The translations under genes and the position numbers were made by a program. This document shows, one piece after another, positions 1-52,202 of a stretch of 64,000 nt of DNA. The DNA lies in contig NC_058499.1 in NCBI RefSeq assembly GCF_020382885.2, positions 18,275,872 through 18,339,871 on the forward strand. The letters run 5' to 3'. How positions within the stretch are numbered: the stretch's first letter is position 1; each line of letters opens with the position of its first letter. The notes under the pieces were generated by a model that did no database searches, was not told the origin of the DNA, and saw nothing but the letters and a program-made list of their open reading frames with translations. The stretch is from Scatophagus argus (taxonomy: Eukaryota; Chordata; Actinopteri; Scatophagidae).

Positions 1-319
1 GCCCCTGAAATTGCAATTGAAACTGACATCAAAAGACCGTAGACTACAATATAACTCTTATACAAAACATCCATGAATTGCAAATTTAAATAAACATGCC
101 CTTACATGCTAAATGTCTGTCATTACACGCTTTATTAATCTATCGCTTTATTCATCCTTTTTTTTTCCAGCAAGTTGTGGTAGCTCTGCCCTCTCTTCTC
201 TTCTTCTTAGTTTTTTCTACTGTTTTTTAGTGTGTTTTACCTGTTTTGTTTAATGTGGTTGATTGCTGTTGCAAATGTGCACACAGGGACACCACTTTTA
301 TTAGTTTTGTTTTTGCTTT
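1..319. other. left flank, no gene seen
   Basis: AT-rich DNA leading into the LINE that follows. The last 150 bases or so are T-rich and could be the 5' part of that LINE, but I cannot place a boundary. I see no exon, RNA gene or tandem repeat here. Confidence 0.4.
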
Positions 320-2145
320 TTGCTGTTTTCTGACCTTTCTGGCACTTCTCTGGGGAATCCCTTCAGCTTCAGCCATGGCTCTATTGTTTACACCAGGGAT
401 CAGCTGTTAGCTCTATGCGGCCCTGCTCTTCTCTACGCGGAAAAACTAGAGATTCCTGCAGAAATACGGAGGAGAAGGAAAGGCTGCAGAGCGGGACGAA
501 AGATCCAGGAGAGGAAACGGAGGTACAGACCATATATACCCTCTGTTATTATGGGAAATGTCCGTTCCTTCTCCAACAAGACTGACGAGCTTACGGCACT
601 GATCCGGCTGCAGAAGGAGTACAGGGAGTGCAGCCTTATGTGTTTCACTAAGACCTGGCTGAATGGACTGATACCGGACTCTGTGGTTTCCCTGGATGGT
701 TTTAAACTTGTGCGTGCTGATCGGGGAGTGGAGGACTGTGGTAAGCGGAAAGGCGGGGGGCTGGCGGTGTTTGTTAATGAGAGATGGTGCAACCCGGGGC
801 ACATCTCTGTTAAGGAACAAGTCTACACTAAAGACATGGAGTTACTTGCTGTTGGCATTCGGCCTTATTACATCCCAAGGGAGTTTTCACACGTTATTGT
901 GTTTAATGTGTACATCCCTCCCTCGGCCGATGCAGCAGCCGCCTGTGAGTTGCTCCACAGTGCAGTGACCAGGATGCAGACACAGCACCCGCAGTCCCTC
1001 CTGCTTATCAGTGGAGACTTCAATAGAGCCTCTCTATCTTCCACTCTCCCCACATTCACACAGTATGTGAAGTGCCACACCAGGGACAACAAGACGCTGG
1101 ACCTTTAGTATGCTAATGTCAAAGACGCATACACCTCCGCCCCCCTCCCCCCGCTGGGACGCTCTGATCACTGTCTCGTTCATCTGCTCCCTGAATACAC
1201 ACCCAGGGTGAGAAGAGAGCCTGCACAGAAGAAGTCTGTGAAAGTGTGGACTGATGAGGACAGTGAGAGACTGAGAGACTGTTTCCAAACTAAAGCTTGG
1301 GAGACACTTTACAGCTCTCATGGTGATGACATCAATGGCCTGACTGACTGCATCACAGACTACATCAACTTCTGTGTGGAGAACACCTTGCCAACCCAGA
1401 GAGTGCGGTGTTTCTCCAACAACAAGCCCTGGGTGACCCTTGAGCTAAAAGCCCTGTTGAACCAGAAGAAGGCCAAACATTGGGGTGGATGACCATAAAC
1501 TGGACTGGTCACATAACACTGATGCCCTGTACAAGAAGGGCCAAAGTTGCCTCCACCTTCTGAGGAGACTGAGGTCCTTTGGAGTGTGCAGACCCCTCTT
1601 AAGGAGCCTCTGCTATTCAATACGCTGTGGTCTGTTGGGAACCGGGCAGCACGGACCGGGACAGGAAGAGACTAAATAAGCTGGTCAGGAGGGCCAACTC
1701 TGTCCTGGGCTGCCCTCTGGACTCCATGCAGGAGGTGGGTGAGAGGAGGATGTTGGCCAAGCTGACATCCATCATGGACAACACCTCTCACCCTCTGCAT
1801 CAGACAGTGGAGGCTCTGAGCAGCTCCTTCAGCGGCAGACTGCTACACCTTCAGTGTAGGAAGGAGCTACAGCAGGTCCTTCATTCCCACTGCTGTTAGA
1901 CTGTATAATTCTACGGTCTAGTCCTCTTTCCTCCCTTAAGAGGACTTGTATATAGCTGTATATTGTACTGTTTTTAACTGTACCTTGTAAATTGTTAATT
2001 TATTTTACCTCTACATTCTTTTGGAACTGTTTTGCACACTTTTTGCTTTTTGTACTCCTCTTCTGTCCTTGTGAGCTGCCACAACAAGTGAATTTCCCCA
2101 CTGCGGGGTCAATAAAGTTCATCTTATCTTATCTTTCAGGAAGGA
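320..2145 (+). mobile_element. LINE family A (L2/CR1-like), internally deleted copy
   Basis: Non-LTR retrotransposon copy. The first part, to about 1108, keeps a readable endonuclease region: the MGNVRSFSNK start, a TKTWLN block, and LLISGDFN with its catalytic-type Asp and Asn. From about 1485 the sequence jumps to the C-terminal end of ORF2 (KLDWSHNTDALYKKGQS, SHPLHQTVEAL), so most of the reverse transcriptase palm is missing. The 3' UTR ends with a polyadenylation-like AATAAA and a short CTTAT-type repeat, typical of fish L2-clade tails. Stop codons and frame changes separate the pieces, so it cannot make a full ORF2. The clade is assigned from remembered fish L2/CR1 proteins, so 'L2-like' is safer than a family name. 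Confidence 0.8.
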
Positions 2146-2519
2146 ACAAGTAGCTCCTTGGTTACTGCCTTGGCACATTTTTAGTTATGACTTAAACTAT
2201 GTTTTGTCGCAAAATAGAGTTGTAGCAAATGGCAAATGTTCATCTTTGAAACTACCCACAACATGATGAAAATAAATTATGACTGAACTTGTAATAGTTT
2301 TGTTGCAAAGCACAATCTTATGGTGAAATTAGATCTGGTGTTTGTTAAGACGAATTACTTGTACCTGTTGTATAAGCATACCAAGCATCATAGCAAGAAG
2401 GCCAACAAACATATACCACCAATTAACATTAGCCCTTCATTCGTGACATGGATATTGTAATCATACAGAGAGAACATAGCATACCTTTATCTTTTGATCA
2501 TTTCACCTCTTGTGCTTTT
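2146..2519. other. AT-rich spacer between LINE copies
   Basis: No gene, exon or clear repeat is visible. It simply separates the first LINE copy from the composite LINE block. Confidence 0.3.
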
Positions 2520-3480
2520 CTTTTTTTCTAAATTGGGCACTTGATGGCTTTGACCTTTTTCTGTCTATCTCTCCATTTATTCAGCACTCGACAATCAAAA
2601 AATTTCCCATCCCTCAACAGCGTGGTGAAATGTCCCCCGCTCCCCTCCCCTTTGCCTTCCTCACAAACAGCTTCAGTGCACGGCACCTTCTCAGCAAGCA
2701 GGTGTGGGGGTCGCCAGTTTGCCAATTCCTCACACAGTGATATGACAGATAATAGAGATCCATGTAGCGGCGCAGATTTTTTTTTTTCCCAAGAGCTCGT
2801 GCCGCCCCCCTCACAAGGCTCCTGGGCCAGACGGTGTGTCCCCCTCCATCCTGAGACACTGTGCGGATAAGCTGACTCCGGGACCTCAAGTGGGAGGCAA
2901 CCATCAGCTCCCTCATGAAAAGGACCCAGCAAAGGATGTTCTTCCTGCGGCAGCTGAGGAAACTCAAGGTGCCCGCCAAAATGATCATTCAGTTCTACAC
3001 GGCCATCATTGAGTCCATTCTCACCTCCTCCATCACCGTGTGATATGCTGGGGCCACTGACAGGGAAAAGCACAGACTGCAGCGTGCTGTGCACTCTGCT
3101 GAGAAAGTGATCGGCTGCAGCCTTCCATCTCTCCGAGACCTGTACGTCTCCAGGACTCTGAGGCGTGCAGGTCGGATCACAGCTGACCCTTCTCACCCTG
3201 GACATGGACTCTTTGAGAAACTCATTCAGGCAGGAGGTTACTGTCCATTCAGACCAGAACCTCACACCACAAGAACAGTTTCTTCTCCTCTGCTGTTGGA
3301 CCGTTGAACACCAACTGATTAACATACCGCTCTGCACTTTAGTTACTTCAGTACAGTCATTGTTCTATGCTCATGTCATCATCCACCTGCTGACCATTTG
3401 CACTGTTTACTTCACTTACTTGCACTACTCCCACTCTGTACTATATCACTCTTGTACTACCTCCAGAACCATATTTATTT

Positions 3481-4484
3481 GGTTGCTGAGACCCCCCATC
3501 CGAAGGAGCTCAGCAGTTACAGGCCAGTGTCAGTGACGTCTCACCTGATGAAGACTCTGGAGAGACTCACCCTCGCCCACCTGCACCCACTGGTGAGCTC
3601 ATCGATGGACCCGATGCAGTTTTCCTATCAGCCAGGAATTGGAGTGGAGGATGCAATTATCTACCTCCTGCACACATCACTATCTCACCTGGAGAGCGCT
3701 GGGAGCACTGTGAGGATCATGTTTTTCGACTTCTCCAGTGCCTTCAACACCATCCAGCCCACCCTACTGGGAGACAAGCTGAAGTGTGCAGGAGTAGAGC
3801 ACCACCTCAGTGCCTGGACCGTGGACTACCTGACAAACAGGCCACAGTATGTGAGGACGCAGAGCGGTGAGCCTGACATGCTTCTCTGTAGTACAGGTGC
3901 ACCACAGGGAACAGTTCTGGCTCCCTTTCTGTTCACTCTCTACACCTCTGATTACAGGTACAACACCCCAACCTGCCACCTACAGAAGTTCTCAGATGAC
4001 TCTGCGATCGTTGGCCTCAGTTGGGCCACCTCAGTCCTGGGCTGCTCCCTGGACTCAGTGGATGAGGTGGGTGACAGGAGGAGGTGTCGTCCATGCTGGA
4101 GACCCCCTCCCACACCATGCAGGGCACTCTGACAGCACTGGGCAGCTCCTTCAGTGACAGACTGCAATAATTCTTACTCATGTAACACTACTACTAGGAT
4201 CAGTACATGCATACTTAGTCTTCCTGAAACAAATCTGTACAATAATCAATCCATCCACTAATCATAACTTGAGGGACTCTAGTGTGAATAGTCTTTTTCT
4301 TTTCTGTACTGTGTACAGCTGCAGGTACTTGTTTCCTGTGTATTTATTCTTTTTGAATGCTCTTCCTTCCCTTATCCTTGCATGCTTTGCACCCTCTATA
4401 TACTCTTTGCTGCTGTAAAACTGTAAATTCCCAGTTATGGGACTAATAAAGGAATATCTTATCTTATCTTATCTTATTTTACTT
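3481..4484 (+). mobile_element. LINE family A, 5'-truncated, nested in family B
   Basis: It opens inside the reverse transcriptase, with SSYRPVSVTSHLMKTLERL, followed by FFDFSSAFNTIQP (catalytic FD block), STGAPQGTVLAPFLFTLYTSDY and KFSDDSAIVG (which aligns with the catalytic FADD block). After about 4020 it jumps to the C-terminal 'VLGCSLDSVDEVGD' block, so it also carries an internal deletion. Its 3' UTR ends with AATAAA near 4445 and a CTTAT repeat near 4455-4480 that degenerates into TTTAT runs. The same family as the copy starting at 320. It sits in the T-rich 3' UTR of a family B LINE, so it is the younger of the two. Confidence 0.7.

Positions 4485-15453: not shown

Positions 15454-15502
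<49 letters not shown>
15454..15502. repeat. (CA)n microsatellite
   Basis: About 24 perfect CA units in the slc41a2-washc4 spacer. Confidence 0.95.
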
Positions 15503-15506
<4 letters not shown>

Positions 15507-15568
15507 GAAGGCACGCACACTTACATGGAGTGTATAAAACAACAAAAAACATAACAATACAAAACCTA

Positions 15569-15570
<2 letters not shown>

Positions 15571-15626
<56 letters not shown>

Positions 15627-15665
15627 TCACCTATCTATTTATCAATCTATTTATCTATCTATCTA
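15571..15665. repeat. (CTAT)n microsatellite
   Basis: Fourteen perfect CTAT units followed by about ten degenerate ones. It ends about 140 bases before the washc4 start codon, so allele length changes would fall close to its promoter. Confidence 0.95.
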
Positions 15666-37250: not shown

Positions 37251-39120
37251 TGTATTCGTTAGTCCCACAGGGTGCTGAACAGTGGCCACAACACAAAACA
37301 AAACCCTAACAAAATGTATGAACATAAATATGATATAAATTATTGACTATAAGCAGGGGCATCGTTGTCAGGCCTCTGCCTCCTCCTTCCCTTATGTGAT
37401 CATAAGTTGTCTTCCATTATGAAAAGAGTGTGCTGTCTGTAGCTGCTATCACTACAGAGGTTGCCTCTTTCAGTAATAATATCAATATTCCAATAATACA
37501 GGTACTTATATGTTTCTTTTGCACTTTGCCTGGGGCCACAGACAAGTGTAATGATACTAAAGCAGGAATAAATATTACAGGAAAGTTAATTGTGGATTCA
37601 CAGGAGCACAGATTATTTGTGCCTTTGTCTATTTTGTATATTTATAAAGAAGTATATTTTTAAAGAAATATTAATACTTTCTAGACCATTTTCCCAACAG
37701 ATTTATTATTATTATTATTATTTTTACTTTGACAGGTATAATACATTAATTATTACATTACATTATGTGCCCCAGTAATCACCTGATAGGCCGATGAAGT
37801 ACACCTGTGCTTTCTCCTCTATGACCCATCAAATGCGAGACATGAACAGGGCCTATTGCAGCAGTCACAGGGTTCTTTCTGTGGGCTCAGCCAGGGCTGT
37901 ACTGTGGCCTGTTTGAGGCCCCAGCAGTACATGGATAAGGAGAAGGCCAAGTGCTAAAAACAGTCTGTCAGTGAGTGAAAACAGACAAGGGATAAATCTT
38001 CTGATAAGGAAAATGAAATTCCTTGTCAGTTTTATCTGGCTGGAAAATAGCCCTAATGAAGGAATGCAAGATAGCATGGGTAAATCACACCTTGGGCATA
38101 GGGGTGACAGACCACCTCTTACAGTTTGAGAGTAGGACACCCCAGCGAGGAATAAAATGATATTCAGCTTTTAAAACGATATGTCTACATGGAAAACTAC
38201 AACATGAGCATCTGGATTTGAAGGATTTTGGTTATAGCACTGAAGTCTCAACTCCATAATGACCACGCAGTTGAGGTCAAACCAATTCAAATGTGACACT
38301 GACAAGACACAGATCTACAGAGCCATACACCCTCCACTAAACTTTAGTACCCCTTCCTGGGATTTAGCTTACCTTACCCGCTAAAACATTTCAAAACAGC
38401 GAATGATTTAGTACAGTCTAAGTCAGTGCAAAAGACACATAAACTCCCACTTTTGGTCTAAGTGTGAACACTGAATTCTTGATATTATTGCACAGTAGAG
38501 GCCCTCTTGTCTGGCTCAGTGGCACAGACCCAGAACTATGTCCGTGCCGAATAAAACAGAATGTAGATGACCTTTGATGCTCTTTCATCATAAAGCACTT
38601 CTTATGCTTATCCACGGCACCCTGCCCCTTCCTGTCTCTCTCTCTCCCACCTCTGTCATCTCGGAGAAGAAGGGGAGAAAGTCATTAGGCATAAATGGGG
38701 AGGAGAGAGCAGCTAGTGGTTGCTATCGCCATGAAATTCAGGGCAAAGCTCAGAGCCAGTGAGAGATAGTGAGAGGACTGCACTGGGGAATATCTGCTGA
38801 GAGAATACAATACCTTTTCAGCTCATTAAGTTGGATAAACAAAGGGCTCAGTGTAAGAGATGATGAGAATCATGGGCAGCAGCAGGGAAACATTGGAAAG
38901 TAGGTATTCTTTAATTCTTATGATTATCATCATAATGTCTTTTCTTGGTGACCACTGGTGATGCATATTTTCATTGTAAATAACTTACCAGGGTGGCTTT
39001 TATTACACGAAACAATGTGATTCAGCATCATAATAATGTAATTGCTGCTATGTGCAGATGCAATACAGTGTTACAACCTTGTTTTGTTTTCGTATATTAT
39101 TAAGATCAGTAACTCCAGAG
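37251..39120. other. cnot2-lrrc10 intergenic region
   Basis: No gene is seen. It has AT-rich stretches, a TTA run near 37705, and a more purine-rich part at about 38640-38800 that could hold lrrc10 regulatory sites. I could not find a clean CArG or MEF2 box. Confidence 0.35.
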
Positions 39121-39205
39121 GGGCGGTGGCAGAGCATTAATGGGATGCCATTCAATGTACTTGAAGACAACAACAACAGCCTCAGTGACAGAGACATTAA
39201 ACGAG

Positions 39206-40030
39206 ATGGGTAATACCATGAGAGGCATCATTGCCTTCATTCCCTCAGAGCGCTGCCAGCGTTTCTTAGTGGGCGACCTGAAGGAGATGCCACTTGATCG
39301 GACCTTGGACCTGAGCAACCGGCAGTTGCGTCGGCTGCCTGTTGCAGCCTGTGTCTTCAATGAACTAGTGAAACTCTACTTGAGTGACAACAACCTCAGC
39401 AGTTTACCAGCTGAACTACAGGGCCTGAAGAAGTTGCAGCTCCTAGCCCTCGACTTTAACTGCTTTGAAGAACTCCCTGCAGTCGTCTGTAGATTGCCCC
39501 AGCTCAGCATCCTTTACCTGGGTAACAACAGGCTTTACCACCTCCCAAAGGAACTGAGAGAGCTCAAGGAACTCAGTACTCTGTGGCTGGAGACTAATTG
39601 CTTCACTGTCTTCCCTAAGGTTGTTTGTGAGCTCTCTAATCTCAAGACCCTGCACCTAGGGTATAACCAGATACAGAGTTTACCCAGAGAGCTTAGTATG
39701 CTAGAAGAGCTAAGAAGTATCTGGCTTGCAGGGAACCAGCTGGCAGAGTTCCCACAAGTACTGCTGGAAATGCACTTATTAGCCGTCATCGATGTGGATC
39801 GGAACAAAATACGCCGCTTCCCTGGCCTGTCCCACATGCAGGGGTTGAAACTTGTTATCTATGACCACAACCCATGCGTTAATGCTCCGGCAGTAGGCGA
39901 GGGAGTCAGAAGAGTCGGGCGCTGGGCGGACAGCTCAGATGATGAACAGGAAGATGAAGGGTCAAAAGCAGCGAGTGAGACTACAGCAGAGGTCACAGAA
40001 ACACACCCAGAGGAGGAGCAAAACATTTAG
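39206..40030 (+). CDS. lrrc10: leucine-rich repeat protein 10 (cardiac)
   Basis: LRRC10 is a heart-enriched leucine-rich repeat protein reported to sit near actin and alpha-actinin in cardiomyocytes. One exon encodes 274 aa, as in other vertebrates. The N-terminus MGNT.R.IIAFIP..RC matches human MGNTIRALVAFIPADRC. LRRs fill about residues 31-220, with the repeated pattern LxxLxLxxNxLxxLP (for example VKLYLSDNNLSSLPAEL and SILYLGNNRLYHLPKEL). The block LKLVIYDHNPC..AP and GVRRVGRWA follows, and the tail is acidic (DSSDDEQEDEG). I chose the ATG at 39206 rather than the in-frame one at 39140, because homology begins there. An AATAAA at 40268 lies 240 bases after the stop. The neighbour cnot2 is also close in human 12q15. 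Confidence 0.95.
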   Translation: MGNTMRGIIAFIPSERCQRFLVGDLKEMPLDRTLDLSNRQLRRLPVAACVFNELVKLYLSDNNLSSLPAELQGLKKLQLLALDFNCFEELPAVVCRLPQLSILYLGNNRLYHLPKELRELKELSTLWLETNCFTVFPKVVCELSNLKTLHLGYNQIQSLPRELSMLEELRSIWLAGNQLAEFPQVLLEMHLLAVIDVDRNKIRRFPGLSHMQGLKLVIYDHNPCVNAPAVGEGVRRVGRWADSSDDEQEDEGSKAASETTAEVTETHPEEEQNI

Positions 40031-40299: not shown

Positions 40300-43200
40300 A
40301 TTTTTTTTTTAAATAAGATAAGTTGCATCAGCAGTGACAATGCAAACTATTAATTTCCACAGATGTCAGATTTTCTGTTCGTCAAAACTATTTTATTTTC
40401 ATTAAGACATATATAGAATTTTACAGGTAGTATCTGTGGAATCAAAATAATATGGACAGCATGTATTGCTACTCTATACGTATTAGTAATGTGTATGCAG
40501 GACAGCAATACGTTCATACTTTTATTGGTCATCTAATAATCTGTTCGTAACCCTGGTGTCAGTGGAAACAAAATATAACCATTCAATCAACAGAAGGCTC
40601 TAGTTGGCAGCATCTAGGTTGTGTGAATTTCAGCTATTGAGAAAAAGAAACAGATATAGAACATTGCATAAATTCTTGTTCAAGTAAAGTCTGAAATAAT
40701 ATCTGTACCTGCTGAGGCTGAATACAGTGGGGTTTTTAATACCAGTGATGGATGATTTAAGTCAATTAGTGCACTCTTTATCCAGACCAATGCATAATTC
40801 ATCTGATAGATTGGGCCTGTGGCTTTGAATAAAGACTGCTAATGGGCCTTAATATCATCACCATAAGGTTCTCATCTAAAACAGATTGTAAGTGCATCTT
40901 TCCAATTCCTCAGTGTACCAGGAAAATGTTCCATAAACAAGATTACATGTCATCAGTGTTTCATTTTGCACATACTGATTTTTTTTTAAATGTACAAAAA
41001 TCGATTATAACAGACTGCATACCAACTCATTTACTGGAAATTTGATTATTTCAAACCATGAGAACACAATAAGCTACTTTATTTACAGCTACAACAAATA
41101 CTTTGCTTGTTTCTGTAAGTCCAAAAGATTCTATGAACATATAAAGGCTTCTTTCTATTTTATCATTCAATTACTGTACAGCGTATGTCAAAGGTGAACT
41201 TCTCGATTCTGTTACACTGTCTGCCAGCATGCCAAATTTAAGCTGTGACAACATATGATGTTCCATTTAGTTTAGCTTTAGGTCTCATGAATTAATCAGA
41301 TCTACCTTTATTAAGTGTGTGATCACAACCTGACTACAATACGGACATAAAACATCCTAACCATCTTAACTTACAAATAGATTTCTAGCTAAGTGTGTTG
41401 ATGCAAAGCACATCTATTGTAGGCAATTTCAATAATGAGTTTCTTTCCTGAGCTTCTTGACTGTTTGCCAACCATGGGACTGCATTTCGTGATTCAGTTT
41501 TCAATTCAAGTGTCACTCATGGTATTGGAATAAGCTGGATCAAAGGGCTTTGTACTTGCAAAACTGTACTGTAGTTAATATCACCCTTCATTAATTGTCA
41601 TAAATCTTTGTCAAAAAATTGGTTGTAATGATTTTTTAAAAGACTTTATCAGAATAATATTGAATGGTACACCATATTCTGGTATGTAAAAACAGTAATG
41701 ACCTAATCTTAAATATAAGTGTGCTGTTTAGAGAAATAAATATTTAATCTTGCAGTAATAGATAAGGTAAACAGTTATTTATCAACATAAATTATATTAT
41801 ATTAATTTATTATTATATTAGTTATATTTGTATGTAAATGTAATAAATGTTGCAAATCTAGTATTTCTGACAAATTTAAAAATATATATTTTTTTGCAAT
41901 AGTTTGTGATTGTACATATTACAAATTTACCAGAGAGACCACAATGAAAGAAAAGTGCACTACTGTACCTTTATTTAAGTTGTTCAACGCATAAATAACA
42001 CCTACTCTTATAACTACACAAGCTTTTACAATGAATATTCCAAATTACAGAATAAAAGAAGACAGAACATGAACGCAGTATGAGTTTAACAATATCTTTG
42101 GTGCAAAACCCTACATCACCGCAACCTCCACAAACCCTCTCATAAACTTGCTTAAACCATAAGCTGAAGTGTGGTTCAGTACATAGAGCCATACACGAGC
42201 ACCACCTTCACTTTATTAGCTCTAACAACAAGCACCAATTTCAAAACAGTAACTTCACTTATTCTTCTTATATTTTATGTTGCTTGACATTAAATACAAA
42301 CTTAATACAATACTTAAAAAGACCCATACACATATAATATCTTGGCGCTTTGTTGTGAGGAAAACTTAATAAATACCATTTTTACAGCACCAACCTGCAG
42401 AGTACAATCTGTACTGTAACAGACAGTGAATACAAAGATATGCTGGAATGAATGTCAGCTTTGTAAAAGCATTGAAGCTTGAACTAAATATGTCACAGCA
42501 GTGAGATCACATTATACCAAAACAGAGTGTCTCTATTTGCAAAATGAAAAAGCAACAAATGCCTTATGTCCCTCTGACTGGACCATTGACTCATTTTTTT
42601 CTGGCAAATTATTATAAACAGAGACACTTTTATAGACACATTTTCCAAATCTAATTGCTCTAAATCTAAGAATCTAAGACCCTCTGAGATAAAAGCATCA
42701 CAAGACTTATTTGTGTGTATCCTCCAAAAGGGTTTGAAACACTTCAGGATATTCCTTCTTCGAAAAAACCCAACTTAAAATTCAGTTTCAAGGAAGGGGT
42801 GGCCACATTCCAAAACAGAATCAACTCGACTAATGTTTGAACTGCTCATCTGACTTCTTCTGATTTATTATAGGATGTGTGCATCAGCTTTCAAGCTGGC
42901 CATTACATGAGAAAAGGCCACCTTAGACAGGAGCAGTAAAACATAGGAACACCCAACTGATTTTAAAAGGGTGTTAAACTGTTGATGGTAATGCAAAATT
43001 GCTATGGGCCAGAGCTGGAATATAGTATCACCTGCTATTGGCACAAACATAAGACTGTAGTTACGCTGTTGTCTTTAGGGCAGGCTTCCCACTCAGCAGA
43101 CAATAAGCAGAATTAAATGATCAGAGGTCTAAGTTGCAATGAGGTAACCTGTTCTCAAACAAGACAATAAGCTGTAGTTAGTAAGCTAAAACAACACGGG

Positions 43201-43364
43201 TTTTACATTTTCATGCATCTGTATTTAGGCCAACTTAAACAGTGGGTTTGATTGAGTTGATCAATACATGTCAAATCACATTCAATATATAATAAAGAGT
43301 GATGGGACTTTGTGCAGCTTATCTGCATATACTATAGGTACTTCAGTGTGTGCAGTGGCATGTT
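40300..43364. other. lrrc10-seipin spacer, no gene
   Basis: About 3 kb of AT-rich DNA in which I see no exon with homology. The right part should be the seipin 3' UTR (minus strand). Minus-strand AATAAA candidates lie near 42864-42869 and 41972. Confidence 0.45.
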
Positions 43365-44633
43365 TCACAGGCTCATCCACGGTCCGGGTCTCTGTCGAAG
43401 TGCTGTCTCACCCTTCTGAGGCAACTGCCATCCACTGATCACATCTGAGCTATTCGTTTCCTCTGGGTTTACAGCTTCATGAGACTCTTCATCCTTTATA
43501 TCTGGCACATCTGCCCCAGAGCCATCAGGGATTATCGAGGGCTTCTTTAACGACGGCTCAGACACTGTGTCGTCTCCCTGATCAGATGCCTCATTCATAG
43601 ATCCAATCACTTTAGGAGCGTCAAGTTCCTTCTGTGAGTTTTCCTTCTCCATGCGCTTCCGAGCCTCCTCTCTCCTCTGTTGGATGCGGGCGTTGTCTCC
43701 CATCATAACCCTGACTCTTACTTGGTCTGGTGGCCAAAGCCCGCCCCATATGAACTGCAGGTAGCTGAAGAGCACAATGACACTGAGGAAGGCAAAGTTG
43801 GTGGCCACGCCAATCACTGCAGAAGTCAGAGGGAAGTTGTACAGAACATATCTTATACCGGTGAAGTATGCATGGATACGGAGCTGAGATGAGTAGATCT
43901 GCACTCGTGTGGACTGGATCTCAATGACGGCGCCGATTGTGGGCTGATAAGCATTAGTCTTGTAGTCTGAGAAGAGCTCAACTTCTATGAGCTGCTTCTG
44001 CTCAGCCATGCCAGTCAGAAGGAAAGGAGAGAATACTACAGTACTCAGGGTCTGCAGAAGGCTGGAGCGGTAGTGCAGCATTGTAGATCGTCCCACTGAT
44101 GAGACAGTCTTCCCACCTTTGGTATAAGAAAACATCTTGACCATGAACATACCAAGCTGTTCATTCACTGGAGACTCTGGCATCTCTAACTCCAGAGATA
44201 TTCGATAAGGCTGACCGTAAGCCATCACCTGGTCCCTCTCATTCTTCATGAAAGAGATGTTGGCCGTGGGGAATGAGCAAAGCGCTGACTCTGAGGCATC
44301 ACAATCGGACTTATAGTAGAAGTGCACGGGGGTGGAGAAGCTCACAGTGGGCATGTAGGAGTAATAGAAGCTTCCATAGAGAAAGATGGACACCCACAAT
44401 AGCAGGACCAGGACACATAACAGAATGGCAGCCTGAAATAAAGTTCGCCGGGCTTTGAGGAGCGTCACAGCTGCTACATCGTGTAGCCAGTGCAGAACCG
44501 GTCCCATCGTAGCCCCCATTGTGTCTGATCCGGAACACGCTGATCTTCTTCTGGTCCTGATTTGAGCAGCTGTTCCTCCTTCGAGCCCCGTTGAATGCTG
44601 CCACTGTAGTGGGTCCTCCTTGTGATCAGACAT
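43365..44633 (-). CDS. bscl2-like: seipin (bscl2-like), intronless
   Basis: Seipin is an ER membrane protein that forms rings at ER-lipid droplet contacts and shapes droplet growth. The 422-codon frame is uninterrupted. Features: a polar N-terminus of ~60 residues, membrane segment 1 at about 65-88 ([20 protein letters not shown]), the luminal domain with [15 protein letters not shown], a glycosylation sequon NIS at N125 (human N88 in NVS), [17 protein letters not shown], and [15 protein letters not shown], then membrane segment 2 at about 268-292. The charged tail ends in ALRQRPGPW, similar to human ALRQRP. The luminal domain matches human over its whole length. Methionines at 39 and 43 align with the short human isoform start, so two start sites are possible. 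Human BSCL2 is split by many introns and this copy has none, which suggests a retrogene. It shares a short divergent promoter with fnbp4. Confidence 0.93.
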
Positions 44634-45047
44634 CAGTGGGTGGCTCCTACTCAGATCTGTGTAATTGCTTATGTTCGCCCTCCCATGTCCAGTCTGTTCA
44701 ACAAACTAACGTTACACCCTCACTCACCTAGGCTCCAAGTTTTAACTTGTTAATTAAGCTAGCTAGTTACTGCTAATTTGGTCTACGAACTAGGTACGCA
44801 ACACGGCAAGAGGAAAATACTAATTGCTTCTAGCTAGAGGTTAAATGCGGGTTTTATACTGACTTGGCCGCAGGATCTAAGCTGTTTAGCAAGTTGACTA
44901 GCATTCCACTGCTGCTGCTACACAGAAAACATGACCTCATAAACCGGAAGTTGAAACCTTCTTTTGTGCTAGCACGAACCAGCGAAGCAGATTTGCAACA
45001 ACGACGCAAGTGAGGGGAGCAGGCGGCCCTTAGACTGTCATACAGCA
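44634..45047. promoter_or_regulatory. bidirectional seipin/fnbp4 promoter
   Basis: Only 414 bases separate the two divergent start codons, so both promoters must be here, unless distant 5' exons exist. An ETS-type site, ACCGGAAGTT, lies at 44943-44952, the kind common in divergent housekeeping promoters. I see no convincing TATA box. Confidence 0.6.
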
Positions 45048-48000
45048 ATGGGGAAGAAAAGTCGAATCACCGGAGGAGCGGTCGGTCGGAGGACGATCCT
45101 ACAGCTTTCACCCCCTGGGCTCCGTGGTGGGAATGGCGGGGAGAGGGATGAAGCACCCTCTGGATCTGATGGTATATTTTTAACATGTTAGCCACGAGTT
45201 AGCTAAATGCTAAATACCTGGGTTGTGAAGAATTGGCTCGTCTAAAAAATGGATTCCCTGAACTAAATTTAGCTGCCGGATCGGTTAACACCTGGTACAA
45301 AGATACAGTGTAACCAACAAACAGCTAAATGATCGCTAACTGTCACCGCCCATGAAAGGAGACCCTTATTAACCGATCGATCAGAAGCTATCGGCTTACG
45401 TGCTAACCTAGCCGTTAGCAAGCTAGTGATTCTTGTGAGTCTGGCAGAAAAGGCTTTCGACAAATGACTTGCCTAGTTAATGCTAACTAGAGGTAATACG
45501 CCTACATAACACAAACACTGTTACATTTGGTTTGCTTTTTCTACGTGTATTAAGGTCTGTGACCTTATGGGTGTCGCGTTAATTGTTAGCCTGTGTGGGA
45601 ATACCCGTGGCTTATGCTACAGCTAGCTTGCTGTAGCAATTGTTGCAGCTCAGAATTAATCTCCTGGCTGACCTTGATTGTTTTTTTTGTAGATGAACAG
45701 GAGAGTGATGGTCACAGAATCGTGAGAGAAGTGCGCGCAAACATGAAGGCTCCCGCAGTGAAGGCCACAGGTACAATAACTCTGTGTGTGTGTATATATA
45801 TGTATGTAGCTGCTTGTGTTTGAAACAAGAAAAGACTGCAATTTTTGTCTTCTTCTTTAGAGGGGTTGTCCTTGCTTGGAGCCTATGAGGACAGTGATGA
45901 TGAGGAAGCCGGGGACTCTCAGCGTTCAACTGCAAATTCTCAACTCAATCAGTCAACTGACATTGACAGTACATTGGCCAATTTCATGGCTGTGAGTATA
46001 ACTTGCTGTGTATCTTAATTCTCTGGTTTGGTCACTGGACTCAGAACAAATGTTTACATTGTGGTTGTGTTTTCTTTTAAAATGTCAACTTTCAAGACAG
46101 ACAGCTTGATAATTAAAAGTTAACCTATACCCATTAGAGGCACCATAACATTTATGTATGTATAATTTCCAACAACTAACACAGTGGAGGCGCCCAACGA
46201 ATGAAACGGCTGATATTTATCTGTCAGACTCCGACCTATACAGAAATGGATGTTCTTGGTTTGGTTCTGTGATTTAAAGTTCATAGGACCTTAAGGATCA
46301 TAAGTGCACCCAGTTCAGTCCAAAAAAAGAAATGTTACAAGGTTTCAAGATGAGAAATTGGATAGCAGTATTTAGCTGTGAACTGAATAGAGAGATTTTC
46401 ACTAGACCTGTGGGCCTATTCCACTGTAGAGTGATACAGTAGACTTTAGGCTTTGGTTTCCTGATTTGTAATTAATTTTTTAGGATTCAAATTCCTAATA
46501 ATTCTTAGGGTTCTAACTTGGATCTATTTTTATGATTAAATCACATTAATTATGCAAAGTAAACAGTGTGGCTCATTCTTAGGACTGAACATATGTTTTT
46601 GTTAAATTATAAATGAATCTCACCGTTTTCTCCACCACAGGAAATTGATGCAATCACCACTCAGCCAAGTTCAGATGATACAGCATCTCATTTGTCAGTC
46701 TCAGCGACTGACCCTCCCAGACCTGAGGTCAATACTCAGCAGCTACCTGCCAGTGAAGGACAGAATCGAGAAAGCACTGAGTTTGAGTACAATACTCAGT
46801 ACTCACTAGCTGGAGGTAACAGTCTTTACTGTATAAAGATCAGGTGTGCATGTCCTCCTGATTAATTAATATTTTAACAAAGAAATTTCAAATTAATTGT
46901 AGTTGTTTTCACAATATAAGCTTGCTTACTTATGTGTGTGTAAATTGCTCCACATTGATGAAACCATTATGGTTTTTTTGCAGTGGGTGTAGAGATGGGA
47001 GATTGGCAGGAGGTATGGGATGAGAACTCTGGCTGTTACTATTACTGGAACACTCTGACCAACGAGGTGTCCTGGGAGCTGCCACACTATCTGGCTGATC
47101 AGGTGCAAAGCCTGGGGCAGTATGCCAACAGGTAGGGTGAATCTGACAACATTGTCAAAACTTTACAGAATATATTACAACAATAACATCTTTATCTTCA
47201 AGTCAGAAAATAAAAACAAAATGAAATAAAAATAAATCTACTTGCACGACCTGAAACACTTGTATTCACTTTTTTGGTTATGTCTCAGTACAGAAGTTCA
47301 ACTATGTTTTTCTTTGCAGCTCTAGTGTCAATGGCAATGGCACAGTGCATGCAGGTTATCACAGTGAGGAAAGCGCTGCATCCGCTGTTGCCCCGACACT
47401 AGTGAAAGAGACCAAAGTGAAGGCAAGTTTCATTTAAGTTCAAAATGAACGTGAATCAGTGTTATTCTGTGGAGCTGAAGGGTCATTATTTTGAGTTTTA
47501 ATGTATCACCTTTTGTATTAAAGGAGGTCATTGAGAGTGTTGTAGGCCTTACAAGTGAAGAGGAGGAGCACCGTGGAGTGGCTGCATCTCTGCTTGGTCC
47601 TCTGATCCCTTCTGAAGTGAAAGAAGCTGAAGAAAAATGGAGAAAAAGACTGCTTAAAGGTCCAGACGAGCCTGAGAACAGTTTGGATTCTGATGGAGAA
47701 GGTGTTCGTCCTGCAGGCTCCCCCTGTACGCCTCCACAGGACCCAGACCCAGTCTCAGTCCCCAATGTTCAGAAAGAGCTTTGCATCAAGAAGCAGTCCA
47801 GAGAGAACTCAGATGCTGAGGAGGCAGAGGAGGACACAATGGAACTAGAACTGACACTGGAGAGAAAAAAGGTGGGATTTTTTTGTGTGTGTGTGTCCTT
47901 TTGTTACCGACAGGAATTACCTTCAAGTTGTTTGTAGCACTGGTATTTCACAATTTGCTGCAAATGTTATTGTCAGTGTGACCAAGCTCTAACCTGTTGT

Positions 48001-51000
48001 CTGGTTCTTAGGCTGAGCTACGGGCGCTGGAAGAAGGTGATGGAAGTGCAGGGGGCTCCAGTCCTTGTTCTGAGACAAGCCAAGAGGCCTCCGGGTCTCG
48101 TGTTCTTCTGCTGAAGAAAAGCCGATGGAAGACTGCTTTCCCCTGTGCTGCCAGCCCTGACTCAAACAGCAGAAGCTCAGACCTACAGGACAACACAGAC
48201 ACAGGTGGGTCCAAATAATGACATGCATGGTATTAGAATGTTACTAGCATGACAAGAGTGGACGAAAGGACATTAAAAATCCCTCCACTTAAGCAAAAAA
48301 AATCCTGTATACTTAAATGCCTCTTTTGTGTCCTATAGCACCTTCTCAAGTACCAGAGAGCATTGCAGAAGAAGAAGACAAAGAAACAGACGGTAATGAG
48401 GAGAAAGCTGTTTCAAAACCTATGGTTAAAGAAGAGTCGGAAACTCCCGAGCTCAAAGTGGAGACTCCTGAGCTTAAGGTAACAACAACATTGCATTGCA
48501 TTGCTGCCGTTTGACTGTTCTCAATCTGGTGTAAATAGTACACTGTATATTTTATCTAGCTGGCACCATTGCTACTACTGTATTACCAATCATAACAACT
48601 GTGACAGTGTCTATTAAGACATGTTTTTCATGATGAAAACCTATAGTTTCAGATTGGACAACTGGCTAACACATTAACCAGCAAGATGGAGTTCCTGGGG
48701 ATAAACAAAAAGGCAATCTCAAACTTTCAGTTGCTTCTGCTACAAACTGAGGTGAGAAGGGTTCAAGTTCACCATCCTTCCCAAGCAACATTATCCCAGT
48801 TTCCAGTTGTAGCAATCCCAGTTGGACTTATGAAATATTTAACGCTTAATTTTGTTTCATATCATTTTGCACACAGTCATGTGGTAGTACTTAATATTTA
48901 AAATTCTCATAATAATCCATCAGAATGTGTCATTCTGGAAACTTACTGTAGTTACTCTTCCATGTGGCTCATCTATCTTATAGCTCTTCTCTCTTTGTTA
49001 TCTGTCTTTATCCCTTTTCCTCTACTTTCTGGACTTGTATTTCACACATATCTCCTCCCTCCCCCTTTTTCTTGTCCTTTTTCCTCCCCAGACTCGGATT
49101 GCTGACTGGAGGGAGGGCGCCCTGAATGGGGTCTATCTTCGCCGCCGGCTGCAGGAAGCTGCCGAACACATAAAATATTACGAACTTAACGCCACCCCTA
49201 AAGGCTGGTCCTGCCACTGGGACAGGTACGCGCTCCTTACCTTTCACATCTCTAAACTCCCTCGTCCCCCAAAAATCTTACCATGTGACTACAACTCCCT
49301 CGGTGCTGAGGTTGCAGACTTTGTAACATGACTTGGGGAGAAGCTTAACCAGTCCCAGAGGATCAAAAAAATTACCAGAAACAGACTCTTCAGGTATCTG
49401 TGATACAATCCTGGCACTCTGCCTTGCACGTACTGGTAAGGGAGCATCCACTGGGCCAGCCTGCTTCCTGTAAAATATACCTGCCACCTTGTCCTATAAT
49501 ACAGACTCTTAGGCCCTTTGTTGTGAGGGCATTTTTTAGACTGCTTATGGGTCCAGTCAGTGGAAAAATTGGAAGTGGGTGGGGGCGGTGTGGTAGGAAG
49601 GTTGGTTTCGTGGGAGAGCTTTGCACTTTACAGGACCACAACTCCCAGAATGCAGTGCAGACAGAATGATGCCCTGGATGCGAGGAGTGTCAAGCATCAA
49701 ATAAAAGGTGAAGATGGAGCAATGACGGGAATCCAGCAGGTCAGACCTACTCTATTTCATATGTCTTTCTGTTTTTTTTATTTTCTTTTTTCTGATGTAA
49801 AATGAGTTGACTGTGTGCTTGTTACTTTCTGACATGTGATTATGATGATGATGATGATGATGATGATGCTTCCTCCCTGGCGTCTTCCTGTGTCTGGGAG
49901 GGAATGGTTGTCTAAAACGGAACAAATGTGACAACCATGGTGTGAGCTGCTGAATGCTACTTTCAGGACCTAGAGATGATTTGTTTTGCTTTTTTTGTTT
50001 TTGAGAGCAAGGTGGGTTCCCTATCCACATCCATAACCACACTCTAATTGGGCCCTTCTGTTGGATGGCTAAAGTCGCTGTCCATACCAACAATCCTGCC
50101 CCCTACTGTGGCCATTATGTCCACTCCTTTGCCCCAATGTCCCAGGGTATCATGCCACTCAGCCAGTTGCTAGGCTGGTCGTTGAGACTTGTTGTCTTCT
50201 ATCTCTGTTGTCCTACTTTTTAGAGAGCACAGGCGGTATTTCTATGTGAACGACCGGACCGGTGTCTCCCAGTGGGATTTCCCAACAGAGGAGGACAAAT
50301 GCGAGGACCTGAAGGGCAGCCAGGGTACCCTGACACAGACATCCATCCAGGGGGATACCAAAACATCATCTACATCTACTGATGGGGTCACAGGTCAGTC
50401 TACTGCTGCTACATCTGCTTTTTAGCTCAGCCTGTTAAGTGTCTTGTTTAATGACTTTAGGCTATGAACGTTTTTTTTTAATATTCACTCATGCATGAGT
50501 AATGATCAGTTAATATTGTGTTACTGTGCGTACTGTCTGAAAAAAATGCTATCCTCACTAACGGCCTGTGTTATATGTTTTACAGGAACTTCCTCTGCTG
50601 CCCCACCAGCCCCTGCTCAGCCCAGTGCATCGTCCCTCTGGTCTCCATCTCAACCTCCTCTTCCTGACAGTCCACCTCCACCTTCCAACTACCCCCCACC
50701 TCCACCTCTCCCACCAGGCTCACCACCTCCACCTCCTCCCCCTCCTGACAGTGATGGAGAGATCATGGAGGTGGAGATGGAGATGGATGATGATAATAAT
50801 GACGGGGAGCCTCCAGCACCTGGAACTGAGGAAGATGCCGGTGTGAGGCCTCCTTTACCTCCAGGCGCTGCTAGCATGAAGGTAGGAGTAATCAGGTGTC
50901 TTGGTTTATTTTTAATTATTGCACTGATGTTGTACCTGATAAGGCTATATGTGTAAATTCAAAGTAAAACAGGACAGCAGCTGTTAACTTGTATTTGTCT

Positions 51001-52202
51001 TCACTCACACAGATTGTGGAGTCGTCTGGCCCCTTGGGGAAGGGTCAGAAACGTAAAGCCAGTCAGCTGAATAAAGCTATTACTATTGGCAGCAGTCCCA
51101 TTCTCTACACCCAGCCTGCTGTCAGTGCAGGTAAAACTGTGTCATTACTCAGCATCTGCAGTTACTGCATGTATTAATCATATTAGGAACAAAAATGGCA
51201 ATTTGTCTGAACAGAATTATTACACATCCTCAGAAAGAAGACCAGAGCCCAGTCTGTGTTCACTTAGAGCAAGTGCTCCCAAGACAAAGCTTGGAAGTAT
51301 ATTTTACTGATTAAAGCCTCAGAAGTGTGTCACTTCTCTAAGGCAGTGTTCTAGTTAGGGTAAACAAATGACTGCAAATTACTGAGTAACATTCCAGTGT
51401 TCTCTCAATAAAGGTTTCTTTTTGTCTGCAGCCCCTTTAATGTCAGCAACTGCCTACTGGGGCGTATCAGCTGTCAGTGCCCCTTTGGTCCCATGTGAAC
51501 CTCCTCCCCCACCTGTCCCAGCCCTACCCCCTCAACCACCACTGCCACCATCCCAGCCACCCTATGAACATCCTGGAGCCAAAGCTGTGGCCACAGACAA
51601 GAATAAGAAAGCAAAAAAGGATAAGGTAGAGTTAATATTTTACGTCATTTATCAAAGAATGGAATTATGGCATTAGATTAGAATATCAATAATATTCATT
51701 ATCAGCTGTTTTTCATTGTAAAGCTTCTGGATTGGTTTTCTTAACTTTTTGTAGTCCAGTGATTAAATCCCAAAACACAATAGAAGGAGCAGTGTGATTT
51801 TGTCCTCCTTTGTCTCCCCTGTAGTCAAAGAAGAGTAAGATCAAAATGCCTTCATTGGTGAAAAAGTGGCAGAGCATCCAGAAGGAGCTGGATGAGGAAG
51901 AGAAGAGCAGCTCCAGTGACGAGGACCGAGATCAGCTTAACAAGAAGAGTATCGAGGAGTGGAAGCAACAGCAGCTTATGACGTATGTTTATGTTTGAGT
52001 AGGCAAAAAAAAAAAAAAAAAATAGTTAGGATGATGACATAAGGTTGTAGTTTCATTAATCTTGGTAATCCTTTACAACTTATTAACCTTATTAACTTTT
52101 CAATTCTACAGGGGAAAAGCGTCAAAGAACGCCAACTTTGAAGCACTTCCTGAAAACTGGCGGGAGCGACTAAAGAAACGAAAGACCATGAATAACACAT
52201 AA
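45048..52202 (+). CDS. fnbp4: formin-binding protein 4
   Basis: FNBP4 is a WW-domain protein that binds proline-rich formins and is probably nuclear. Exons: 45048-45171, 45693-45770, 45861-45991, 46641-46815, 46984-47131, 47320-47422, 47524-47871, 48012-48204, 48339-48478, 48647-48751, 49092-49225, 50224-50393, 50586-50881, 51013-51130, 51432-51625, 51825-51982, 52112-52202. Sum 2706 nt, 901 aa. N-terminus MGKKSR..GRR.ILQLSPPG as in human. WW domain 1 is at about residues 176-207 (WQEVWDENSGCYYYW..TNEVSWELP) and WW domain 2 at about 552-585 (WSCHWDREHRRYFYVND..SQWDFP). Between them is the block FLGIN..AISNFQLLLLQTETRIADWREGALNG. Polyproline runs (exons 13 and 15) precede the basic tail KMPSLVKKWQSIQ..L and NANFEALPENWRERLKKRK. 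Intron 6 uses a GC donor. Confidence 0.95.
47423..47523 (+). other. GC-AG intron in fnbp4
   Basis: The exon ends AAG and the intron starts gcaagt rather than gtaagt, then ends 'attaaag' before GAGGTC. The rest of the donor matches the strong consensus typical of functional GC introns. Joining the exons here keeps the frame (KVKEVIESVV, compare human REVKKEVNEG). Confidence 0.75.
49575..49660 (+). promoter_or_regulatory. promoter-like cluster in fnbp4 intron 11
   Basis: A GC-box-like 'gtgggggcggtg' near 49577 is followed, at 49634-49656, by ACCACAACTCCCAGAATGCA, a near match to the ZNF143 element ACTACAACTCCCAGAATGCA. The pair could mark an internal promoter of fnbp4 or of an unseen transcript. 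Confidence 0.4.
49842..49868. repeat. (GAT)n microsatellite
   Basis: Nine GAT units in fnbp4 intron 11. The poly-His and poly-Met frames it gives are artefacts. Confidence 0.9.

Follow-up and report, generated by a model that had tools for sequence, protein, structure and literature searches.

The 64,000-nucleotide stretch of Scatophagus argus DNA analyzed here (hereafter the window) carries a genuine, intact seipin gene without coding introns. We favor, at a probability of roughly 0.55, the view that this gene is an old retrogene, its coding region derived from a spliced seipin mRNA, which settled head-to-head with the neighboring fnbp4 gene. To judge from its sequence, the gene is apparently functional. 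The features on which these statements draw are collected in Table 1.

Table 1. Features of the seipin gene and its surroundings, numbered from the first letter of the window.
Feature	Position	Strand	Basis or remark
Single-frame leucine-rich-repeat gene (probably lrrc10)	39113..40030	+	Neighbor on the other side, 3.3 kb from the seipin frame
AATAAA, probable poly-A signal	42864..42869	-	About 0.5 kb past the seipin stop; no poly-A tract after it
Seipin coding region	43365..44633	-	422 codons plus stop, single open frame from ATG to stop; ORF, Pfam, and PDB matches
ALRQRP motif, C-terminal	43386..43403	-	Residues 411-416; SLRQRP at the equivalent aligned place in 9c8d
Second hydrophobic (membrane) segment	43734..43832	-	Residues 268-300; three overlapping Kyte-Doolittle windows merged; coordinates converted by hand
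Lumenal N-glycosylation sequon NIS	44253..44261	-	Residues 125-127; aligns with NVS of 6ds5, 9c8d, and 9p9w
First hydrophobic (membrane) segment	44358..44453	-	Residues 61-92; Kyte-Doolittle windows above 1.6; coordinates converted by hand
Gap between the divergent seipin and fnbp4 ATGs, candidate shared promoter	44634..45048	.	415 bases
Donor-like TAG/GTGAGT	44722..44730	-	-94 from the seipin ATG; possible 5' UTR intron
TATAAAA	44852..44858	-	One copy, -225 from the seipin ATG; motif scan without shuffle control
ETS-type site	44944..44951	.	-318 from the seipin ATG; ACTTCCGG on the minus strand, CCGGAAGT on the plus strand; consensus match, without shuffle control
fnbp4 (presumed), intron-bearing	45049..52000	+	Divergent neighbor; end approximate

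The original prediction of a whole seipin in one frame was confirmed by the open reading frame itself and by Pfam and PDB matches. Measured from stop to stop, the frame comprises 446 codons (43365-44705, minus strand); a simple composition model expects about 7e-8 such frames in the window. Its product covers the complete profile of the Pfam family PF06775 Seipin (profile positions 1-196 of 196, protein residues 76-280, E value 3.3e-64), and, with the cut-off at 25 bits, its score of 216.9 places it within the family. A PDB search at E values up to 1 returned five matches, the best four of which are named Seipin (6ds5, 402.7 bits; 9c8d, 397 bits; 9p9w, 365.3 bits; and 6mlu, 178.8 bits), the fifth being a designed protein with an E value of 0.18. 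The alignments to the PDB seipins span the lumenal domain together with the two membrane segments. The frame was also the top segment by a crude codon score (85.1), which is not independent evidence because this frame, together with the leucine-rich-repeat frame, served to train the scorer. Within the window, a tblastn search for a second seipin found only the gene itself, followed by matches at E values of 0.96, 1.9, and 6.5. Pattern searches gave 3 viral and 16 prokaryotic matches, without a confirmed relative among them, an absence that was expected.

The hallmarks of the family are likewise in place. Hydropathy analysis predicts two membrane segments, one on either side of the lumenal Seipin domain, and the two segments, the lumenal sequon, and the C-terminal ALRQRP motif, all said earlier to have been kept, were each recovered by hydropathy, motif scanning, or alignment to the PDB chains. 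The alignments to 6ds5 and 9c8d do not include residues 1-44. A single-sequence structure model of the protein reached a mean pLDDT of 46.7, too poor for a structure search.

Comparison with the PDB chains, of which we take 6ds5 to be human seipin and 6mlu to be fly seipin, showed core identities of 65.6% to 6ds5 (158/241), 65.0% to 9p9w (154/237), and 39.3% to 6mlu (88/224), with 67.2% between 6ds5 and 9p9w (160/238). From the first two values, the window seipin is well diverged from the seipins with which it was compared. Relative-rate tests were conducted over 230 ungapped columns with 6mlu as the outgroup. The window seipin carries 21 unique changes where 6ds5 has 12 (chi-square 2.45), and 20 where 9p9w has 16 (chi-square 0.44); both comparisons lean toward more change in the window seipin, and neither is significant. 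Support for the three possible pairings over 233 columns (24 for the window seipin with 9p9w, 27 for the window seipin with 6ds5, and 31 for 6ds5 with 9p9w) singles out none of them.

Many introns interrupt human BSCL2, whereas the coding region of the window copy is undivided; the human gene stands in here for the structure of a parent. In alignment with 6ds5, the lumenal domain of the window protein contains no insertion, and hence no intron is read through in that domain. Because fnbp4 has introns, their absence from seipin is not a region-wide trait. The leucine-rich-repeat gene on the other side, probably lrrc10, also occupies a single frame, and human LRRC10 likewise consists of one coding exon. 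For a coding region entirely free of introns, an RNA origin is the simplest reading: a single event, derivation from a cDNA, would account for the absence of every coding intron.

That reading overlaps with another, on which we would put even odds: that the window gene is just the regular fish gene annotated as bscl2l and known by that name already, for which a single coding exon is normal in teleosts. This fits either origin of the intron-free frame, and its odds therefore overlap with those of the other readings. A zebrafish bscl2l does exist: passages of three papers give its RefSeq number in a list of cloned genes (PMC6588384), report it in xanthophores (PMC12923660), and treat it as a lipodystrophy gene (PMC12611321), and a passage of a fourth calls seipin a proposed xanthophore marker (PMC6966818). 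These passages on bscl2l, however, give neither its exon structure nor its position, and the two zebrafish primers in PMC12611321, allowed up to five substitutions, had no match at the window seipin. One of these primers had four chance-like matches elsewhere in the window and the other had none; species distance alone may explain the mismatch. Among the literature matches listed, seipin was nowhere described as a retrogene or as intronless. Searches combining seipin, zebrafish, and intronless, or seipin, teleost, and introns, or bscl2l and seipin, returned no papers, those joining bscl2 with retrogene returned papers unrelated by title, and none treating the neighbor genes of the seipin locus together were found.

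Classical marks of retroposition were sought around the gene. Within 1,864 bases after the seipin stop codon, no A run exceeds seven, and the four repeat pairs of at least 11 bases found in 42300-45300 include none that flanks seipin as a target-site duplication would. Such marks decay, and their absence thus argues only against a recent insertion; were the window seipin a retrocopy, it would probably be an old one. Of the earlier alternatives, that the gene is either under selection or recent, the first may apply, the frame being intact and the relative-rate tests showing no significant excess of changes; the missing poly-A tract and flanking repeats speak against the second. The broader prediction of a probable functional retrogene stands in so far as the gene is intact, free of coding introns, and conserved; the absent marks weigh against it, and the same features do not separate it from intron loss in place. 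By this last route, which we consider possible though unlikely, an ancestral fish bscl2 resided at this site and lost its coding introns through recombination with its own cDNA. The outcome would be an identical single frame, and the failure to find either a poly-A tract or flanking repeats is in its favor.

The surroundings of the gene bear on these two origins from both sides. Between 13400 and 63900, we take the gene order to be slc41a2, washc4, cnot2, lrrc10, seipin, fnbp4, a parp12-like gene, and a tbxas1-like gene. The washc4 piece contains WASH-7_C above the cut-off and the slc41a2 piece MgtE below its curated cut-off; PDB searches with the cnot2, washc4, and slc41a2 pieces were uninformative, and cnot2, for which the searches run offered no domain or PDB support, is a tentative name. 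In fnbp4, one WW domain (46980-47129) is above the Pfam cut-off and another (50225-50419) falls just under it (25.6 versus 26.9 bits). Its 11 coding segments were picked by eye, one of them lacking an open frame as set, and 5 of the 11 start at a pyrimidine-rich AG acceptor, the other boundaries being unrefined. The parp12-like gene has WWE above and PARP below the cut-off and matches chains of the zinc finger antiviral protein, and the P450 piece, presumably tbxas1-like, has CYP3A chains as its best PDB matches.

In human, the genes from slc41a2 to lrrc10 are on 12q, FNBP4 is on 11p11, and the parp12-like and tbxas1-like genes are on 7q34, while BSCL2 is on 11q12, adjoining GNG3 and HNRNPUL2. 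Neither gng3 nor hnrnpul2 was recognized in the translated segments of the window, which were read by eye. The absence of recognizable BSCL2 neighbors favors a moved gene over intron loss in place, without settling the matter. Conversely, FNBP4 and BSCL2 are both on chromosome 11 in human, and their nearness in the fish could therefore be partly ancestral, which would favor intron loss in place. The mixture of human chromosome 12, 11, and 7 genes across 13400-63900 may also mark a rearrangement junction around seipin and fnbp4. Elsewhere in the window, remains of a non-LTR (LINE-type) retrotransposon were observed at 305-4132, with RVT_1 at 3323-4132 and a hint of an endonuclease at 305-1108 that is below the curated cut-off; elements of this type could have been a source of reverse transcriptase. 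Tandem arrays of the AC dinucleotide and of ATCT lie at 15455-15665, and no tRNA or Rfam family was detected in the window.

The gap separating seipin from fnbp4 is a candidate promoter for both. The two genes are indeed head-to-head, as had been noted, although the distance between their ATGs is one base longer than the 414 bp originally given. The suggestion that seipin borrowed the promoter of fnbp4 is upheld as anatomy only, that is, by a divergent neighbor and a promoter-like gap. CpG observed/expected ratios in 250-bp bins rise from 0.45 (44501-44750) and 0.70 (44751-45000) to 0.81 (45001-45250) and 0.89 (45251-45500), against 0.33 for the whole window, with GC above 50% in just one of the last three bins (44751-45500). 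Of the two highest bins, one is mostly and the other entirely within fnbp4, and since the ratio is lowest beside seipin and peaks inside fnbp4, the enrichment may belong to fnbp4 alone. In the motif scan of the gap, a TATA motif and an ETS-type site were detected, whereas NRF1, YY1, CCAAT, and SP1 patterns were not. The TATA motif, the ETS-type site, and the partial CpG enrichment are compatible with, and do not prove, a shared promoter, which we consider a plausible candidate.

The donor-like TAG/GTGAGT ahead of the seipin start codon suggests a possible intron in the 5' UTR. Only 10 of the 3,941 GT sites on the minus strand, this one included, score at or above its level. Under intron loss in place, such an intron could be a leftover, given that a cDNA primed from the 3' end is least likely to reach the 5' end. 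Between the donor and the ATG, however, just one of the eight best acceptors listed is found, and it is inadequate, with a score of 4.4 and an implied intron of 34 bases. The splice scores discriminate poorly: near four fnbp4 segment ends, the best GT scores only 3.8 to 5.9.

Two further explanations fare worse. A recent or redundant processed copy, devoid of function and still open by chance, would also present a single frame, yet no poly-A tract follows the gene, every seipin hallmark checked has been kept, and no significant acceleration was detected, making such a copy improbable. An assembly artefact or cDNA contamination, for which no support was found, is more improbable still, given that the sequence continues beyond both ends of the frame and that the poly-A signal, 0.5 kb past the stop, has no poly-A tail after it.

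Under the favored reading of an old retrogene, a spliced seipin mRNA would have been copied back and its whole coding region inserted beside fnbp4. The retrocopy would then have settled head-to-head with that gene, with transcription probably starting from the common upstream gap. By homology, the product most likely does the ordinary job of seipin as an endoplasmic reticulum (ER) protein with two membrane segments; through its lumenal domain it is predicted to form the seipin ring, which would gather triglyceride at sites of lipid-droplet formation. A bolder version, which we regard as doubtful, holds that a large group of fishes no longer possesses the intron-bearing bscl2, its sole seipin being the intronless copy driven by a bidirectional promoter shared with fnbp4.

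Zebrafish are used for studying seipin, and if the window gene is a retrogene running on a neighbor's promoter, its regulation need not mirror that of the human gene. In people, seipin mutations lead to severe lipodystrophy, according to a passage of one paper (PMC12499419). If the intron-bearing copy was lost, the locus would constitute a clean retrogene replacement of an important gene, one acting at the lipid droplet and now placed in a new regulatory setting; if the introns were merely lost in place, it would be an ordinary curiosity. Either way, the window seipin is of interest as an evolutionary detail and is ordinary in kind.

Among known systems, the vertebrate seipins (BSCL2; 6ds5, 9c8d, and 9p9w) resemble the window copy in having the full Seipin profile, two membrane segments, and an NxS sequon, and the RQRP tail motif is common to the window seipin and 9c8d. 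Zebrafish bscl2l is, by name, also a fish seipin gene. Teleost hatching-enzyme and opsin genes offer vertebrate examples of intronless genes like the window seipin, which their authors, in the passages available, tie to RNA-based copying (PMC6385490; PMC10339062), although the proteins are unrelated. The closest parallel found in the literature is amphioxus SYCP1, a retrogene with one coding exon that is proposed to share a bidirectional promoter with its neighbor (PMC5803294). Both SYCP1 and the window seipin have a single coding exon, a head-to-head neighbor, and a putative shared promoter; for SYCP1, 5' UTR exons and the loss of the parent gene were demonstrated, whereas for the window seipin a 5' UTR intron is only possible.
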